Below, piece by piece: positions 48,239 through 58,692 of a DNA stretch of 64,000 bases. How positions within the stretch are numbered: the first letter of the stretch is position 1; each line of letters begins with the position of its first letter. The stretch is from positions 62,001 through 126,000 of the forward strand of contig JAIXMG010000026.1 in assembly GCA_025201345.1 (NCBI GenBank), given 5' to 3'. Made by a program: the position numbers and the translations under genes. A model generated the notes under the pieces. The model was not told the DNA's origin. It saw only the letters and a list, made by a program, of their open reading frames with translations, and did not search any database. This stretch comes from Thamnidium elegans. Taxonomy: Eukaryota > Mucoromycota > Mucoromycetes > Mucorales > Mucoraceae.

Positions 48239-48944
48239 TGTAAATGTGTAGAAAGAAAAAGAAGAAGAAAAAAACTGTCTTGTCGAACATTGTGTTTAAA
48301 TAAATTTCATATCTTAAATAGTGAGTTTTCATAAAAATCGTTTTCTTTTCTTTTTGACAAGCTCATTACTTGTTTTTAAATGAAATTCGGAAGTACACTT
48401 CAGTTATGAATATATGTCTTTTCTTTTTCAAAATAAATATGCACACTTTTTTTTTACTTCTCTTATTATCCTCTAACGCTTTGTCAAGATAATATAGAGA
48501 ATACAACGCTTTTAAACGTTCGTGGTTACTGGTAAGATAAATTAACGTGCATCTACTAACTCCGATTTTTCGTATTTTTTATTTTTCTATAATACTCGAC
48601 GGCAAAACACTTTTAACATAAATTAATTGCAGTTTAACATTATAAATAAGATCACAAAGAGATATGCCGAAGTGTTTTTTTTGTCTTTGCGGTTTTTTTC
48701 GTGAAAAATATCGATTTGAAGTTTGGCTCTTTAGGCAGAGAAGTCTACAAATGACCTCCCCAAATTAGTATTACGGCCCAATAATATCACATACTTGCGT
48801 TTAAATATACAGTAATAAATTTATCTATGCAACATAAACATTTAAGTGGCAGATGATAAAAAAAAATATCTCACTTTCTTTTGACTGCTAACTATATTTT
48901 ATATCTTAAAACTATCAATTACACTACTTATAAATATTTAAATA
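48239..48944. other. Intergenic region, left flank of the transposase/Fanzor locus
   Basis: Holds the Kar5-like promoter and probably the left end of the transposon. A CCAAATTAG at 48760-48768 has an inverted partner CTAATTTGG at 54363-54371, too short to call a terminal repeat. No coding feature. Confidence 0.4.
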
Positions 48945-51226
48945 ATGGGAAGAATATCTAACAAAAAAAGGCTTGGGTGAAGAACTTACGTAACGTACGT
49001 AATTTTCCAGAGCAGGTTACTGAGCAACAAAGTGATATTTCTTCAGTAAACGATGAACCTGTTCAAATCATTGATGAAGCAGCCCTCCAATCAATTAATT
49101 TTAAACTGAAGGAAGACGGAGTCAATAAGAGAGAGGCATTTTCTAGGGGACTTGAATACAGAGCTAGATATCAGCGAAAGTTGAAGCAGAAAAACAGGGA
49201 AATGGCGAAAGGAAGCGCCAAAATATCCAGTTATTTTAGTAGCGTAACCGCAAGTTCTGCATCTGAGGAGGCGCCTGTCGAAACTGAAATGCAAAAACTT
49301 CAAGCAGCCTATGACTACTTAACCTCTGAGCTGGAACCAAAAATTAGCTTAGAAAGCGCCCAACAAAAGGCAGGCACATATGAGTGTACAAAATACTTGG
49401 CCGTTCATTTGTACTTGGAGGTCCGAATTGATGGTATCAAGCGAGTACAGGCTTCAGAACTTACAGCCAAAAGATTCTGGTATGGTAAGGCTACGGTTTA
49501 CCGTAGTATTGTAATTCGAAAATATGCCGCCGAATATATCATTACAGGGGAAATTACTAAGGGTTTGCAAGGAAAACACTCGAAGAGAATATCAATTTTA
49601 GATGACAACGATATCAAGAGAAAAGTTATTGAGTGGTTCAGATCTGTACCCAAAATTCAAAGAAATATTCCTGCGATCCAAAATGAGCTTCGTCACGTTA
49701 TTATACCGAATGCAATCGAAAATAACGCTCTTAATGTTGAAAGATACTCCAACGCGGTTACTTCTATTGAATGTATAAGAAAGAAGCTTATTGAATGGGG
49801 TTTTCATTTTAAGCGAGTTGGTAAATTAATTAATTATGAAAAAAAACAAATAACTAGTTACTAATAAAAAATCTTTTATTTTACAAGAAGAGTAATCTTT
49901 TTCGACGGACACGAAAGAGAAGATGTAGTCGCATACAGAAACGAATGGTCTAAAAGAATAATGTTATACCGCGAGTATTCTGAAACGTACAGTTATGATG
50001 ATGTTAGTATTGTAATCCCTCCAATTTTACCTGCCAATATCAGACGACATGTCTTTGTAACTCACGACGAAAGCACATTCTATGCTAATGACCATCAACA
50101 GTATGCTTGGCTGGAAGAAACTGAGAATTTTTGCTTGCCAAAATCTCAAGGTAGATCAATTATGATCTCTGAATTCCACTGTCCCTGTCACGGAACAATG
50201 AGGGCTATGATAAATGGCAAACCCATGACCTCGAGAGTGGTGTTTTATCCTGGAGCCCCTCACCAAGGATATCGGACGAGTGAGCACATGATCACTCAAT
50301 TGAAGGACGTGTTGGTCTTGTTTTCTGTTTTGCACCAAGATATGACTGCCGTATTCCTTTTCGATCAGAGTAGTAATCATAAGGCCTTCGCCAAAGATGC
50401 TTTGGTTGCTAGTAGAATGAATATGGGAGGAGGTGAAGTAAAAGAAGATGATGTCAAGTTTAGAGATGGTCGTTATACCGTGGTAGTAGATAGCCAACCT
50501 GTAGAGAAACGTCAAAGTTTTTACGTTGAAAGAAAGTTCAACTACCTCGAGCTACAAAAGCTTAGATTTAGCAAAATTTCCAGGGCTGATAAAGTTGCGA
50601 AATTTGATGCAATTATGAAAAACGTTCATCCCGTAAGTTTATAATTATCCATTCTTAGATTTCAAATTATATATATATAGAAATTTTCGTTTAACTCGTT
50701 TGCTTTATTTAAAAAATAGAATAATGAGATAAAAACATATTTCATAGGTATTAAAGAAATATTAACACAAAGAAATTTGTTCGGTAGTCAAAACAGATAT
50801 TGCAACAATGTAGAAGCTGCCAACCATGAATGTTGTGCGGTTCATTTGCTTGGCAGTCAGCCTGATTTCATAGAGCAAAAATCAATCTTGGCTGAAGCTA
50901 TTGAAAAAGCAGGTCACATTTTCGAACTTTACCCTCGGCATCATTGTGAATGTAACCCCATTGAACGTTTCTGGGGAGCCAGCAAAAAAATAGCGAGACG
51001 GAATTGTAACTACAATTTCCGCTCTCTCGATAACAACATCAATAGTTTTCTTGATAGCGTGAACCAACCTGGAGAGATCCCTTTGCAAATCCGTCGTTAC
51101 TTCAACAAAAGCTTCCGGTACATTGAAGCTTACAGTAACGAAAAAGATGTTGCTGAGGCATTTTCTCTCGTAAAAGAGTTCTCAAAGCTTCAAAAATCAC
51201 ACAGAAAGCTCCGCGAAAATCAATAA
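48945..51226 (+). pseudogene. IS630/Tc1-mariner-type DDE transposase, frame-disrupted
   Basis: The first part (48977-49830) encodes about 285 residues with a Lys-rich start and helix-turn-helix-like regions (RKKLIEWGFHFKRVG). The catalytic part follows: FFDGHEREDVVAYRNEW, THDESTFYANDH (first Asp), AVFLFDQSSNH (second Asp) and HHCECNPIERFWG (Glu), the arrangement of a group common in fungi. A GT-AG intron (50635..50719) joins KNVHP to NNEIKTYF. Two breaks remain: an A7 run at 48963-48969 one base off between the ATG at 48945 and the main frame, and a junction at 49815-49895 where no GT-AG splice restores frame. All three catalytic residues are retained. It lies 151 bp upstream of the Fanzor gene on the same strand, so it may be the mobilising enzyme of one composite element. 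Confidence 0.75.
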
Positions 51227-51377
51227 TTCACATAAAAAAATAAAAATAAAAAAAGGCAGTTTTAAATGCCAATATCCATATTAGGAGTCGGAATTGTAAT
51301 TCCAAAAAGTTTATTATAGAGTAGATGCACGTTATGTTTTTCTCTTTCTTTTTTTTTTTTTTTACCTAAATACCTTA

Positions 51378-54136
51378 ATGCGTCCTATTATCTATCCTGA
51401 AACAGAAGAACTAATCCGAAATAAAAAGCAACAGAAGTTTCAGGTACGTGTTGAAGAGGAAAGGCAATCTAGCAATAGAAGAAGAGGTAACATTGAACTA
51501 TAACAGTTTCTGTGAATTTTATTGATCATATTGATAACGTTATCTAACTGTTATATTGACTCAGGTGAAAGAAAAAAAGACACACCAGAGGAGAAAAAAG
51601 CCAAGGCGGATGCAAGAAAAAGAAGAAGAATAGAACAGGATTCTTCATCTTCTGGACCTGTTTGCAAGTCCTGTGGCCAACCTGGTCATACTACTTCTGC
51701 TTCTCGTTTATGTCCCAACCATGAATATACTATCAAAGAACGATTAGGAATGGCTTTCCCTACTTCTTATCAATTGTATACCGTTTCTATAACGCTTGAA
51801 TCTTTCATCAGGCAAGATGAAGGGAATCCGAACAAACTATTAGAATATCAAGAGAGAATAATTACACAGTCTTCATTTTTACGAGAGGTTGTTTATAAAG
51901 CACAGCTTTTAGTTAATTATTATATTTTAAATAATGCAAACAACAATGTCGAGTATCTCTCAAATGATATATTTGAAAAAAAACTTCTGGTACAGAGTTT
52001 GTAGATTAATTTATGGGAAAATCACCATTGAAGAACTACAAAACTTTTATCCAAGACTTCCTGGCATTCAAGAAGCCTATAACCATTTACAAGCGTTAGA
52101 AAATGTCAATCTTTTAGTTGAAAAAGAAGGTCTAGTAGGGTATGGCCAAATTGTTTCGTCTGCTTGTGATACTGTAGCTACTGCCTATAACAACTTCTAC
52201 GTGGAAAATTATGAAACGTATATTGGAAACTATTTTATATACAGACTAAAGCAGGAGTATACTGTAAGTATTAACGAAAATACTAGTTTACATAACTATT
52301 ATACTCATGAACTTTATTTATAAGAATATTAAAATGCCACTTGTAAAAAAGATTGTATATGATTATGTCTTAGATGAAGTCTTAAAGAACGACACAAGGT
52401 CAGATATGCCAGAAGATTTTATTACACAAGATGGTCTTAATAGTGCACCAAATCTACAAGCATTTTTAAACGATATCATTCAGCCAGTTAGAAACAGAGC
52501 ACCTCGGCTCCCACTTTCAAGAGAGGAAGTGACCAAAAACCCGTTCATTGTTCTATCGATAATGACTTATATTATCGAATTCTATGAGCAGGTCAATATA
52601 CAACTTCAGGAAAATGCGCAGCCAGAACAGTCAGAAGAGCTACTAGAACAAACAACAGAGCAACCGCTGGCTCAAACGGTTGAGTTAGTCCGTCCTCAAA
52701 CACGAATGCGACAACCCCAGAGGCCTCGCTTGTTTTCTCTTTTTCCAAATCCTAGTCTTAAATGGCGGTTCATAAAGATTGATGGTCAAAATTTGTCAAC
52801 TCTTTTCCTTGATACACGGCTTCAAAGAGAAGAAAACGAAACAAATTTCGCATTCGCTACACGTTGCTTTTTCAATTCTTTCGATTTTACCAAGCTGAAA
52901 ATCAGAAAGTATGTTTTTTTTAATCCCCCCTCTCCCAATTAAGATCATTATTAATATTTATTACAATAGCTTGACAAAATTACAAGAATTACCAAGACAG
53001 AAAAGACGGATGTTCTTGAACAGTATATACACTGATGGATATACCTGTAGAATTTCTTTTGCAAGGAGTGTCCCAGAAACCCTTGAAGAAGATAAAGTCA
53101 ATCTTGAAATCGCAGATTTCAACGCAGACGAAATTGAAAACTTTTTCCGTCCTTGTTTTCTAGACCCTGGCCGTAAGAATGCATATGTGGCATATTATGG
53201 AAATGAACAGGTCAGGTCTCTGACAGTAAATGAATACTATTGCTCTTCTGGATCTGTAAATCGAGCAAGAAAACAAGATACCTTCAAAATCGAACAAGGC
53301 ATAAAGGATCTAGAGACTCAAATCCCGACGACTAAAACTTCTTCTGTTGATTCTTACATCAACCACCTAGCATATGTACTGACTCATTTGAGGCGTTTTT
53401 TTTTAATTTTTATGACTTCAGAACAGCTTCAATTAAATGGAACAATTATTATGGAAGGCAATGTGCCCTCGAAGAAGCTTGCAATATTCTGATTAATGGT
53501 GGGAAAAAAATATAACCCCAATCGAAGAAAGAAAACAAAATCAAATAGACGGAAACGAAAAAAAATGGTCAACCGACGAACTCTCGATTCTCGCAATCTA
53601 CCAATAGAAATAAAGTAATAGTATATTTTCCAAGTATATGATCATCTTACTAACATCCATTTATATTTTAGACGGACTAACCACAAAAGTCATTTCGTTG
53701 AAGGGGACAGAACAAAGATGCCTTTGGTGATTTTCGGTGATGGTTTAAAAGGGAGTAGCCATGTGAAGTACAAAGGACGACGAGTTGGCGTTTCTGATGT
53801 CATCTATAAGAATTTAAAAAGAAGACAAAACCTCGGGGAGGTGTTATTGCTTGATATAAATGAGTTCCGGACCTCTTCTGTAAGTCATTACAATACAATT
53901 AAGCGCTTATTAAGTCAATTAATTATCCTTCTATAAAATAGGTCTGTCCGAATTGCAAAGAAATGAAGCTTAGAACTCATAAAGTTGACGACAAATCTTT
54001 CTTTAATATATTGATCTGCAACGATTGTAATATATTTTGGAATAGAGATATCCTCGCTGCAAAAAATATTATGTTCATCGCACGCCAGATCTGGGCTGGT
54101 ATGGACCGACCAACAATTTTTACACGTCAAAATTGA
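51378..54136 (+). pseudogene. Fanzor (eukaryotic TnpB-like RNA-guided DNA endonuclease), three homopolymer frame breaks
   Basis: Exons 51378..51486, 51565..52263, 52325..52908, 52970..53614, 53672..53879 and 53942..54136 (about 810 codons) with GT-AG introns. N-terminus: basic leader, then a zinc knuckle CKSCGQPGHTTSASRLCPNH. Middle: helical region (NFWYRVCRLIYGKITIEEL). Nuclease part: RuvC-I LDPGRKNAYVAYYG, VIFGDGLKG, then YKGRRVGVSDVIYKNLKRR, INEFRTSSV with the rearranged Fanzor glutamate, zinc ribbon CPNC...CNDC and RuvC-III WNRDILAAKNI. These are hallmarks of Fanzor/OrfB proteins, which cut DNA guided by an RNA encoded next to the gene. Frame breaks are at an A8 (51976-51983, one extra), a T9 (53396-53404, one short) and an A7 (53504-53510, one extra). 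No other lesion is seen in the nuclease core, so either recent decay or sequence error is possible. Marked pseudogene only because the frame is not continuous as given. Confidence 0.85.
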
Positions 54137-54210
54137 CAACGCACCACATAGAACGTGGTTGTTTCGCGTCTTCGGACAAAAAACTTAAAGATTGCTACAG
54201 GTAAGAGAGT
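54120..54210 (+). ncRNA. Candidate Fanzor guide-RNA scaffold (fRNA/omegaRNA-like) at the 3' end of the Fanzor gene
   Basis: Immediately after the stop, 54137-54161 can fold into a bulged hairpin (CCAC 54144-54147 with GTGG 54155-54158, CAA with TTG outside). Then GTTT 54161-54164 pairs with AAAC 54181-54184 around GTC-TTCG-GAC, a UUCG tetraloop. In TnpB and Fanzor systems the guide scaffold overlaps or follows the nuclease 3' end. This is a positional and structural prediction only; extent and guide are unknown. Confidence 0.35.
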
Positions 54211-54657
54211 ATATAAATACATGACTAATAGAAACTTGATATATACTAACACTCAATATGCCCTATTTTTGAATCTGTATTCTGTTTTCCTATTGCTGTC
54301 CCATATTCCCTTCTATATCTCATATTCCCTTCTGTGTCCCAATTTTGTAACCTTGTCCCAATCTAATTTGGAAATGATCAAAAATTTATTTACTTTGTCC
54401 AAAAAAAGGTAAGAGTATATAACCCGCAAAAAATGACCGTTATATAAAACAAATTCGATTTTAAAATAGATGCACTGTACCTAAGTTTTTCTCTTTTTCT
54501 TTGTAACTTGGTTACAAATTGCATATTTTTCTGCACATTTTTTAGTCATACTTGTGTCCAGGCTCGAATAGGAATAAAAAGGAAATTCAAAATAATCGTG
54601 TCGCACTTGAAAAAAATAAAATGTTGTATAGAATTCTATATGAACTTTAAAGACCAC

Positions 54658-54720: not shown

Positions 54721-55022
54721 AGGATTGTAGTCTTAATTGGTGCGGTTGATTTTTTTTTTTTTTTTTGGTGATTAATCTATAATCAGTGCTCTCACCCATA
54801 AAAGGGTTATGTATCTATCTGCTCTTTTTAACTTACAATTTTGTCATGCTGAGGCCATCTTATTTATTTTCTAAAAGTCTATAAAAAGGCTCATATCTTC
54901 AATTTAATAAAACAATAATCTCTTTTAGTCTGATAAACTTTTTTTTTTTTTTTTGATATTTACTCTGTCAATATCACACTCATATAGCTCAGCGGTAACA
55001 AAAAAAAATGAAATAACAAAAT

Positions 55023-55131
55023 TTGTTACCTCATCATGTTACCTTTTGTTACCTTTTGTTACCTTTTGTTACCTTTTGTTACCGCATAGTTGTTTTGTTA
55101 CCTCAACATATTACCTCAACATGTTACCTTC
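55023..55131 (+). repeat. GTTACC minisatellite
   Basis: Five perfect 10-bp units of the type GTTACCTTTT at about 55038-55083, flanked by degenerate GTTACCTCA/ATGTTACC copies to 55131. Not a TTAGGG-type telomere repeat. Function unknown. Confidence 0.8.
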
Positions 55132-55348
55132 TCATGTCATAGGATTTGGAAAATATTTGGTCATTTACTTTACCTAACAAGTATACTCCTGGTACTGACC
55201 TAATGAGCAAGTGGATTCTAGATGATAAATAGGTAATAAACATCATCGTTACAAAAGTTATTGGTAGGTATAACCGTAGACATTGAAAGGACTTAGGAAT
55301 AATCATTAACTGTTATTAACCTATTTATGTGGAGCTGCAAAAGATAAA

Positions 55349-55620
55349 GGTTAATTCTTGGTACACCACCAATGCTAATTTAAGACGTAATTTTTTGGTG
55401 CACTTCCAACAATAACAGGTGCTTTACATGTAAAAACGGCTTTTTTTAATATCGTGAGAAAAGAAATTGTAATATAAATATCACAATGATTAAATAAATC
55501 CTTTTTATCATGATTAAAATGACCTATTTATCCATTATTTTTTAACAATGAATCCATATACAAGCAAGTACTTTTTATATAAATATTTCGAAAAGAGCTT
55601 CCCTAAATATTTAAAAGCTT
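55349..55620 (+). repeat. Copy 1 of a non-autonomous repeat family
   Basis: Starts GGTTAATTCTTGGTACACC and shares, in the same orientation and order, long stretches with 58277-58620: GGTGCACTTCCAA-AATAACAGG, TTTACATGTAAAAACG, GATTAAATAAATCC and ATATACAAGCAAGTAC. Its first ~35 bases are also an imperfect inverted match to 58661-58692. Likely a MITE-type element; this copy lacks a clear right end. Confidence 0.6.
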
Positions 55621-55656
55621 GCGTTTTACACTAGACGCTTTCATCCTTAATATATC

Positions 55657-55975
55657 GTGGCTTTGTACCCCCATATATGGACAGAATCTCGAATTATTCC
55701 CAGAAACAGTAATGGTGAATATAAGAACCCACTATTTAAAACGTATCATGAAAATATTAAAGACGAGGTACATCAAATTCCAGCTTTATTAGATATACTT
55801 TTAGAAAATAAATGCGTAGTTGATTTTGATAAAGCTTTATTTGCAACAACTCAAAACAGTACTTTCTCGAATTTCATGAAAAAAAAAAAGGTGATATAAG
55901 TCCCGAATTATTGATTGCATCATATGAGAGTTATATAAAAGATGACATTATTACCTTAAAAAAGAACTCTCAATA
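55657..55975 (+). pseudogene. Unrecognised ORF, possibly a gene fragment
   Basis: A frame without ATG at its start reads LYPHIWTESRIIPRNSNGEY and continues to 55880, where a 10-base A run separates it from GDISPELLIASYESYIKDD in another frame ending with TAA at 55975. It lies directly upstream of the DUF3425-like ORF and could once have been its N-terminal part or a separate gene. Family unknown. Confidence 0.35.
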
Positions 55976-55982
55976 ACCAAGA

Positions 55983-56752
55983 ATGAATTTTCCAAAAGAG
56001 AATACGAAAAGGGCAAAGTTCTCTCCTGTTCAGCCTGAAGAAACCATAGATCAAGATATGTCACTGAATAAAGAACGATCTTCTCCGCCTGAAGACACTA
56101 TGTCTCCTGTACAACAGTATACTCGTCTATATGATGCTTCACCTTCTATAGTTCAATTAAAACCACAATCTCAGCCAATCCCACAAACAACGCAGCAACC
56201 ATATATACCACAACCTACTAGTAATAGTCAAGCTATTACTATTCAACGAAAGCCTCTCGTTGGTGTCATTTATGAATCACCTCTATTAAAAACATCTGAG
56301 AATTTTGTGAATATGCCATCATCACAGGCTTTACATATTTTAAGTCTTCAATTAAAGTTGGGTAGTATTCTGGGGAATATGAAATCTGCTGCATTATTAC
56401 GAAGTATGTACACAAAAAAGTAACAATTTAAAATGTGTGTGTTTACCAATTATATATTTTTTTCTTTGCGGCTTTACAAAGAGTGATACCACACGATATG
56501 AGAATTGATTATGTCCCAGGAGCATCAATTCGTAATCGAATGATTTTATTCCAAAGTTATTATGATATTGATAAATGTTTTGATTATTTGACACAGAAAT
56601 CAGTATTTATGGGAGACGATGTGCGTGATTCCAGAAACTGGGAAGCAGACCCTAAATATTCGATGCAATTTTGGTTTATCTCTCACTTATTAGTGGATCA
56701 AAGCTACAAGGATTTTATGGATAACGACGATGCGAATATATTACGTAAATAA
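55983..56752 (+). CDS. DUF3425-like protein (bZIP-associated domain), possibly C-terminally truncated
   Basis: Exons 55983..56403 and 56484..56752 give 229 residues. The first ~100 residues are Pro/Gln/Ser-rich (QSQPIPQTTQQPYIPQPT). The second exon reads IPHDMRIDYVPGASIRNRM and later NWEADPKYSMQFWFISHLL, which fits the DUF3425 pattern (Pro-Gly-Arg-type start, then W-E...F...WF), a domain found after bZIP regions in fungal transcription factors. No bZIP is seen here. The frame ends at TAA 56750-56752, but stays open afterwards to 56878 with a basic Ser/Arg tail (TAFTRKSFRRSRRMALPS), so the stop may be a truncating mutation. It lies between two copies of a repeat family. Confidence 0.5.
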
Positions 56753-56878
56753 TACGTGGGAGATAATTCTAATGATTCTGACGGTGCTAACAATGGAGAA
56801 CATATATCTGTTGAAAGATCGACTGCTTTCACACGTAAATCATTTAGAAGAAGCCGTAGAATGGCACTTCCTTCTTAA

Positions 56879-58088
56879 AGTAGTCGCCCCAAAATATAAT
56901 GGATAACTGTGTGTTTCTAAAACGTAATAAAAACTAATTCATAAATTATATGTGGCGTTGAACACTACTTGAACAAACCTCATTATTTATTTGTATATTC
57001 TCTTTTGGAATTACTAGAGCTATCCTTAGTGAGAGGATTAATAAATGAAAGATTAGTTTATTGTAGGGGGAAAGTAATCCTCGGTTGTAAAATACAGACA
57101 TGGTACTGATACTGTATTTAAAGAGATAAATAATATTGTCAAGCGTATAACAAAGAACTAAAACCATAAAAGTAAATTCTTCTGTCTCGAACATTATATT
57201 GTTCTTTTTTTTTTAAAAAAAAAATAGATTCTATCAATTTATCACTAGGGAAAATTGGAATGATTAAATAGGCTGTTATGGAAACAGATTATATTTTGAC
57301 GGGTAATATTAATTTATCACTTATAAAGAGAAAGAAAAAGGTATTATTTCGTAAGCTGATGATACTTGCGTGAGAAGTGTTTTGTCAAGTTTTTTTTTGT
57401 TAAAAGTAAACAAATCTGCACAATTTTTTATTATAAACTGCGAATACTTTCACATACTCTTTATATATATATACTTACTCTGGTAGTAGTATCACCACTT
57501 CCTATATAAAAAAACAAATAATATTGATGTTTCCCGAGAGGTACATAGTTAAAGAGATATAAAGATGAAGAAAATAAAAAAAATTAAAAGGAAAAGTATG
57601 TCTAATTTGTACTACCTTTTTTCTTTTTGCATGATTTGTTTACTTTGCTGTAAAAAAAAAAATTACAAGCAAACCGAGCACGGTAACCTTTTCCAAAAAT
57701 GGTTTATTATAAATATTTCTGTTAAAAATACTGCAGTTATAAAAGTATTAAATTGTAGAACACGTTTGGTGTATGGTATTATCTTGGTCGTTTTTTTTTC
57801 TTAAGAACTTTAAAGCAACTAAAATTATCAAGGGTTTATCGTTAATGTTTGTAGCACACATTAAAAAAAGAATCATGCAAAGAGTTTTAGCAATTACTGA
57901 TTATGCGCAATTACAGGTCCGAAAAAAATAAGGCGTGGGCCTGAAAGCTTTGAAAAGTAACCAATAACCTCTCTTTGAGGGTTTCAAGCTCCGTCATGAA
58001 CCAACTTTTTTTTTTCTTTTTTTTTCACTTTTCAGAACCACAATTTGGTTGAAACAATCCTTCTCCCTTATAAATAAGTCTGTAGATA
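56879..58088. other. Intergenic region
   Basis: 1.2 kb with only short, composition-driven ORFs. Nothing supported apart from a possible promoter of the structured segment that follows (TATAAATA at 58069-58076). Confidence 0.5.
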
Positions 58089-58206
58089 AGCTTGTGCTGC
58101 ATCTTCAGGCGATCAAAGACGACCACATCTCTAGGGAGGGTGTGGTAAGAGAGGTGCCCGGCAGGTGTCCTATGTATGCAAGCTAAGTTGCACAGGTCTG
58201 TCTTTT
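58089..58206 (+). ncRNA. Candidate structured small RNA of unknown class
   Basis: A conspicuously G+C-richer block in AT-rich DNA. AGCTTG (58089-58094) pairs with CAAGCT (58179-58184), and CCACA (58122-58126) pairs with TGTGG (58140-58144) inside it. A TATA-like box lies about 20 bp upstream and a T4 run follows the block, as for polymerase III genes with upstream promoters. I could not match it to U-snRNAs, U3, RNase P/MRP, SRP or 5S RNA. Low confidence. Confidence 0.3.
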
Positions 58207-58276
58207 CCCTTCGTATTTAAAATGAAAATGAAAAATAACTTTTATAGCTACTTAATAATTGCGAAAGAGTGACTTT

Positions 58277-58692
58277 TAGGTGAATTCTTGGTACACCACT
58301 ATTTACATCACCTGTGCCAATTTATGACGTATTTTTCGGTGCACTTCCAATAATAACAGGTTCTTTACATGTAAAAACGACTTTAATATCGTGATATTTA
58401 TAGTACAATTTCCTTTCTCACGATGATTAAATAAATCCTTTGAATAAACCTCGTTTTATCATGGTTGAATAAACCCCATTTTATCATAGTTAAATAAACT
58501 CCTTTTTATCATAATTAAAATCACCTATTTATTCTTTCCTTTTCCTTTCCTTTTTTTTTTAACAATGAATTCATATACAAGCAAGTACCTTTTATATAAT
58601 CAAATATCTAGCCATTTCAAAAGACCTTCCCTATGATACGGTGGTGTACCAGGAATTTCCCTAAATTGGCATTGGTGTGCCAAGAATTAACC
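58277..58692 (+). mobile_element. MITE-like element, copy 2 of the repeat family
   Basis: About 415 bp. The left end (TTCTTGGTACACCAC) and the right end, read inversely (GGTTAATTCTTGGCACACCA at 58692 backwards, and CCTGGTACACCACC at 58655 backwards), are imperfect inverted repeats. The interior matches 55349-55620 in direct orientation and has extra GTTTTATCATGGTT-type tandem units (58449-58520). No coding capacity. Confidence 0.6.

Follow-up and report, generated by a model that had tools for sequence, protein, structure and literature searches.

Interrupted Fanzor1 genes in a composite Tc1/mariner-like transposon family of the mould Thamnidium elegans

The window analyzed here is a stretch of 64,000 nucleotides that corresponds to positions 62001-126000 of contig C19 in a T. 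elegans assembly of 34.1 Mb in 64 contigs (copies of the element elsewhere are named below by their contigs). Window positions 51378-54136 hold, on the + strand, an interrupted Fanzor1 gene of six exons (51378-51486, 51565-52263, 52325-52908, 52970-53614, 53672-53879 and 53942-54136). Fanzors are eukaryotic relatives of RNA-guided nucleases that cut DNA in bacteria. The splice sites of all five introns are GT/AG, in agreement with the initial annotation, which had described an RNA-guided endonuclease locus with plausible introns. The motifs listed there (zinc knuckle, LDPGRKN, EFRTS, CPNC/CNDC and NRDILAAKN) are likewise all present on the + strand in that order. The N-terminal zinc-knuckle-like motif, CKSCGQPGH...CPNH, lies at 51663-51722 (zf-CCHC_6, E=0.015, under the cut-off); the pattern CxSCx4H near the N-terminus is kept in seven of 11 aligned homologues, two of these seven being T. 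elegans sequences. The TDG motif of the WED domain (YTDGYTC) was located with TDGYTC at 53031. The codon of the RuvC-I catalytic Asp, at 53163-53165 within LDPGRKN (53160), aligns to that of SpuFz1, the Fanzor1 of Spizellomyces punctatus (PDB 8gkh). FGDGLK at 53730 stands at about the position of the canonical Glu of TnpB, and the codon of the shifted RuvC-II Glu is found at 53862-53864 within NEFRTSS (53859), which aligns to LDEYKTS of SpuFz1. Six residues separate the shifted Glu from the first Cys of a C4 zinc ribbon, CPNC...CNDC, which together with the RuvC-III NRD occupies 53942-54067 (VCPNC at 53942, ICNDCNI at 54014 and NRDILAAKN at 54041). The order of fingerprint motifs on the + strand is thus DPG, shifted Glu, C4 ribbon and NRD.

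The family assignment was examined by similarity searches. The joined translation of a closely related copy, C2, matched SpuFz1 with E=2.1e-6 in phmmer. A profile built from 11 homologues, of which three are T. elegans sequences, matched it with E=8.5e-12, and the first Asp, shifted Glu and NRD correspond in that alignment. The profile search proposed in the initial annotation was therefore positive, and the identification as a Fanzor is upheld. Two window pieces used alone gave weak matches (E=0.26 and 0.024), the former ranking behind an unrelated protein (0.21). PF07282 matched the last window exon with E=4.5e-5 and 24.0 bits, just below the 26.3-bit cut-off, which was passed by five of the six homologues scanned, the sixth being the truncated protein P0007. 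The Fanzor1 motif given in PMC3627910, D-X(125-275)-[TS][TS]-X2-C4-X(5-50)-RD, is present in copy C2 as D-X214-TS-SV-C4-X5-RD, and the same motifs stand at the window coordinates. Three fingerprints of Fanzors described in PMC10711439, namely DPG in RuvC-I, a Glu six residues ahead of the zinc finger and TDG in the WED domain, all occur at the window locus. DPG is not universal among relatives, being DPN in P0003 and DLG in P0005; the complete motif set is found in homologues P0001 and P0006. On its sequence, the segment 51378-54136 is a genuine Fanzor1-type gene in a fungal nuclear genome.

A protein database search returned 11 proteins at first and 53 when an alignment was used as the query. 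Homologues bearing organism names come from Mucor, Rhizopus, Gilbertella, Backusella, Cokeromyces, Benjaminiella and Thamnidium, all of them genera of the Mucorales. Two of the database proteins, P0007 and P0002, are from T. elegans contigs C19 and C21, respectively. Genome-wide, there were 57 matches to the Asp-bearing exon and 21 to PF07282 (counted as pieces, not loci), from which it follows that Fanzors of several kinds are present in T. elegans. Three other origins of the gene were considered. A single-copy or domesticated host gene is ruled out by 12 other copies, and bacterial contamination by the five GT/AG introns and by the fact that all organism-named homologues are fungal (a few are unnamed). 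A Fanzor2/IS607 element was rejected, as none of the nine scanned pieces of the element's two genes gave a Pfam match to a serine recombinase at E 0.1.

The limits of the locus as initially annotated proved too narrow. The Fanzor gene forms the 3′ half of a composite Tc1/mariner-like transposon of 5.93 kb (48545-54477, + strand), present in many copies, with TA dinucleotides at 48543-48544 and 54478-54479. The ends were placed where identity to genomic copies stops and flanks diverge; the aligned region was 48552-54479, and the exact ends were set by eye. The terminal sequences of the window copy are TTA-ACGTGCATCTAC on the left and GATGCACTG-TA on the right. The left terminal repeat (48545-48568, + strand), which begins with ACGTGCATCTAC and has T-TA outside it, was defined by comparing left ends by eye and by pattern searches; 17 bp of the left repeat region that most other copies have are missing from the window copy. 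A gene for a probable DDE-type transposase follows at 48962-51226 on the + strand, with exons 48962-49820, 49893-50632 and 50720-51226 and 701 open codons. Comparison with copy C56 shows that a run of A residues puts the probable start codon, ATG at 48945, out of frame with these codons. DDE_3 matched this transposase with E=0.0039 and 17.5 bits, below the cut-off of 28.6; 232 homologues were found, and PF13358 was present in 30 of the best 120 listed.

The mariner half ends in an inner right terminal repeat of 24 bp, recognized from junction sequences (51309-51332, + strand), which is one base off the usual repeat and is followed by TA. This repeat directly abuts the Fanzor unit (51335-54477, + strand), and the same repeat forms the outer end of a Fanzor-less copy on C12. 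At C56:985051, the mariner half carries terminal inverted repeats: the 24 bp inside TA at its left end recur identically at its inner right end. The outer right end has only a GTGCATCTA core in common with the mariner repeats, and this core, plus AAAAATGACCGTT further in, is found behind both right ends of C56:985051. The outer right end thus resembles a mariner right end from which it may have diverged. TA stands at both ends of copies with divergent flanks, and we infer TA target duplication and excision footprints. The right flank of the element (window 54759-58680) contains dispersed repeats, with stretches matched at ~73-97% at many genomic places.

Copies of the element differ in which parts they retain. 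The transposase half is present in C19, C21, C2 and C3 (it was read in part for the last three); its frame is broken in C2 and C3 and open in C19 and C21 over the 455 codons compared. Five copies (C26, C1, C10, C33 and C11) have lost 48849-50499, i.e., most of the transposase gene, and keep the Fanzor. The same segment is also gone from Fanzor-less derivatives that retain both ends, C1:2107146-2109339, C1:2157702-2159887 and C56:985051-986260. The Fanzor unit stands alone at C31 and C32, both of which read ATTAG|TTATG at the left edge, a junction interpretable as the left TTA plus a short remnant left after excision of the mariner half. At C56, the Fanzor unit lies beside a mariner half that is inverted at the same junction, and at C63 the left end is truncated. 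The C63 copy also has ~145 extra bases inside the Fanzor gene, at about window 52105-52111, flanked by a repeated 7-bp overlap; this insert is possibly another small transposon. Transposon ends of this family were not found at either of the more distant Fanzor loci (C12 and C17).

The state of the Fanzor reading frames was compared in an alignment of 13 Fanzor-unit copies (the window copy and 12 others) out of 20 genomic loci; the seven loci outside the alignment were second pieces of C56, C63 and C3, two Fanzor-deleted C1 copies, a C62 fragment and the distant C12 locus. The window copy contains three frame-changing indels, near 51976, 53396 and 53504, each in a homopolymer. Since its exons do not share one joint frame, the catalytic residues, which had been described as retained as far as they could be identified, are indeed present and are spread over broken frames rather than carried on one translatable chain. 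None of the 13 aligned copies has an intact Fanzor reading frame: the nearest to intact are C1 and C2, with one interruption each, and C21, with one net frame change, while in-frame stops occur in nine of the 13 (C32, C3, C26, C2, C33, C11, C31, C63 and C56). The public model of the window locus, P0007 (BDF21DRAFT_402712, 564 aa), ends before the shifted Glu and the zinc ribbon. The suggestion of a working endonuclease locus is not supported.

One could argue that the window Fanzor is intact and working and that its breaks are homopolymer assembly errors, given that all three lie in homopolymers and that the window copy has no in-frame stop codon. Against this, the break near 53504 is common to the window copy and C21, that near 53396 to the window copy and C3, and that near 51976 is found in six of the 11 other copies that retain that stretch; being common to several copies, the breaks look inherited or recurrent, not random. 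On the best tree, the commonest of them (51976) requires three changes, of which only one is demanded by well-supported branches. In-frame stops are not produced by indel errors, so that those in nine of 13 copies also speak against assembly error. As a control, the four best host matches to HSP70 were inspected. Their frames stay open over 650, 628, 575 and 587 aa, and one of the matches contains a TAG; judged by the HSP70 family alone, frameshifts are thus not rife in the assembly (weaker or split HSP70 matches also report stops, which introns could explain). In addition, P0010 (INT48), a separate T. elegans record with a different locus-tag prefix, terminates at the second break in the same disrupted reading as the window model. 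Assembly error is thus an unlikely cause of the window breaks, and a working gene at this locus appears highly improbable.

Coding changes among the copies comprise 75 silent, 127 replacement and 13 stop changes; from the same spectrum, 58.8, 144.7 and 11.2, respectively, would be expected (ratio 0.69). The Fanzor coding changes thus carry a weak residual constraint and reflect mostly drift. Identity among copies is 97-99%, and the copy tree is star-like, with one of 10 inner branches well supported and a median end branch of 0.0068. As far as such comparisons of sequences can tell, the element family is the result of a recent burst of multiplication followed by decay.

Several copies are mosaics of one another. 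The window segment 52014-53396 has no differences from C26 over ~1.4 kb, with differences on both sides, as in gene conversion. Copies C10 and C11 have their left flank in common over the ~510 bp compared and have different right flanks, a sign of exchange. Window 53585-61382 matches C21:484700-492506 at 100% (rounded) over ~7.8 kb, reaching the terminus of contig C21; to the left of 53585, 39 of 2380 columns of the Fanzor part show differences, and the left flanks do not match. This stretch may reflect either break-induced copying or an assembly artefact. Mosaic identity among the copies is a mark of exchange between them, a process that would not require Fanzor.

By analogy with described Fanzor systems (PMC10432273, PMC10711439), the right-end region at 54380-54479 on the + strand would encode the guide RNA scaffold, with the guide itself presumed to start at 54480. 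Among the 13 copies, 10 of the last 100 columns vary, which is no less than in exons (gap-free variation 0.091 vs. 0.082). Folding of four right-end stretches was no better than that of shuffled sequences (z of -0.46, 0.27, -0.42 and -0.70), and no Rfam match was obtained in this region at E 0.1. Special conservation or folding was accordingly rejected as evidence for a guide RNA, and a right-end guide RNA of the T. elegans Fanzor is presumed from the analogy. Short tandem repeats whose unit number varies among copies lie between the Fanzor stop and the right end (window 54300-54360).

The left ends of the family have a further base in common. T precedes TA at all 12 external left ends of standard orientation (C19, C26, C1, C10, C33, C11, two C1 derivatives, C21, C3, C2 and C56:985051), eight of which were also retrieved by an exact pattern; as C10 and C11 have a common left flank, 11 of the ends are independent. 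Taking 0.326 as the background frequency with which T precedes TA in the window, the chance of finding T throughout is 1.4e-6 for 12 ends and 4.4e-6 for 11. A single exact match to the left repeat, the inner left repeat of C56, has a different base there (ATA). Read in the same sense, the inverted C56 copy has ATA at its outer end too, which counts against a strict TTA rule. By analogy with other Fanzors, the pattern hints that 5′-TTA may be the recognition motif of the T. elegans Fanzor.

Mariner transposases can have flank preferences of their own. The left T-TA may accordingly be a target preference of the transposase, unrelated to Fanzor; this would explain it at least as well as a TTA recognition motif, and we put its chances slightly above even. 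Fanzor-less copies (two on C1 and one on C56) also have T-TA, as such a preference would predict. The bias is, however, one-sided, since the mirror-image A follows TA at only two of 16 right ends, and a similar conserved CA is found upstream of the left repeat of Spu-1 elements, whose SpuFz1 needs CATA (PMC10432273). CATA is taken here for SpuFz1 because PMC11423790, where the word order of CATA/TTAA for GtFz1/SpuFz1 contradicts the later text, gives TTAA for GtFz1 in that later text. A bolder and decidedly improbable idea is that the Fanzor unit is a module acquired by mariners, transported by them in either orientation and later abandoned, and that the one-sided T-TA is an imprint of the Fanzor motif, only TTA-adjacent insertions having been re-cut and copied back. 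If this were true, a Fanzor would have filtered surviving insertions in a eukaryotic genome.

The family has mariner-type ends at TA, a probable DDE-type transposase together with Fanzor1, and about a dozen near-identical copies in a star-like arrangement, and every aligned Fanzor is interrupted. We consider it likely that the window holds one decayed copy of a composite mariner-Fanzor1 family with the following history. The transposase would have acted by cut-and-paste at TA, using as partners the left end of the mariner half and the outer right end that follows Fanzor (the GTGCATCTA core is present in both). In some copies, the inner right end would have been paired instead, so that the mariner half was lost and the Fanzor unit was left behind. 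An intact Fanzor, by analogy with known systems, may have bound an RNA transcribed from the right end outward into the flanking DNA and cleaved the corresponding site where it was still empty, perhaps beside TTA, whereupon repair from the occupied copy would have kept or spread the element. Later transposition would have proceeded in trans, because shortened copies also spread, while the Fanzor genes drifted.

Alternatively, the Fanzor unit could be mobile on its own, with TTATG at its left edge, mariners having inserted alongside it in opposite orientations. Such behavior would fit the two solo copies, which have a common left edge and different flanks, and the C56 copy, in which the junction is the same and the mariner half is inverted. 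Yet the left edge has, by eye, no repeat matching the right end, the distant Fanzor loci on C12 and C17 lack these ends, and ATTAG precedes the edge in both solo copies, as expected of an excision remnant. Independent mobility of the unit therefore seems unlikely to us, and the composite mariner-Fanzor1 family remains the preferred reading.

Parasitella is a genus of the Mucorales, and the PpFz1 chain of Parasitella parasitica was not among the matches in our PDB searches with window pieces, C2 and the profile. PpFz1 is, like the T. elegans gene, a fungal Fanzor1; DNA cleavage has been shown for PpFz1, which bears a cyclophilin-binding RuvC insertion, and its motif is ATN, as opposed to the guessed TTA of T. 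elegans (PMC11423790). The catalytic D, shifted E and NRD of the T. elegans family align with those of SpuFz1, and Spu-1 elements similarly are multi-copy, have Fanzor-less derivatives with ends kept and show conserved bases upstream of the left repeat (PMC10432273). Differences from Spu-1 are that its authors report no transposase between the repeats, whereas a probable DDE-type transposase lies inside the T. elegans element; that the upstream bases are CA rather than T; and that the guide RNA was sequenced for Spu and is only inferred for T. elegans (PMC10432273). The elements PGv-1, PUl-1 and PUl-4 combine, as here, a mariner-like transposase with Fanzor1, TA sites and Fanzor-only relatives (PMC3627910). 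They come from an algal virus and the oomycete Pythium, whereas the carrier here is a Mucorales mould, and, unlike in them, the mariner half of the T. elegans element has retained an inner right end of its own and is inverted or missing in some copies (PMC3627910). MCi-2 of Mucor circinelloides, also from the Mucorales, resembles the T. elegans family in that the 3′ Fanzor part is near-identical and the 5′ part different, but it has 11-12 bp duplications and, as described, no terminal repeats, in contrast to the mariner ends at TA found here (PMC3627910).

Fanzor1 in mariner elements, with and without a transposase, was described in 2013 (PMC3627910). Our search of the literature on Fanzor transposons, fungi, Mucorales and the T. 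elegans genome, which covered few subscription papers, found no description of a mariner-Fanzor family in T. elegans. Mariner-borne Fanzor1 is thus already known, and what is new here is the T. elegans family. Its copies are of value as a fossil family, not as a new kind of enzyme, and they carry two warnings: motif-complete Fanzor loci can be dead, and the public gene model at the window locus omits the C-terminal part. The role that Fanzors play for their transposons is stated to be unknown in the Discussion of PMC10432273. A single genome here contains near-identical copies with or without the transposase and with or without Fanzor; in some the mariner half has been excised or inverted, and the right flanks are of about a dozen kinds. 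Together these copies make up a natural set from which the guide and the recognition motif could be read, and they offer a natural experiment on whether guided cutting helps a DDE transposon persist.
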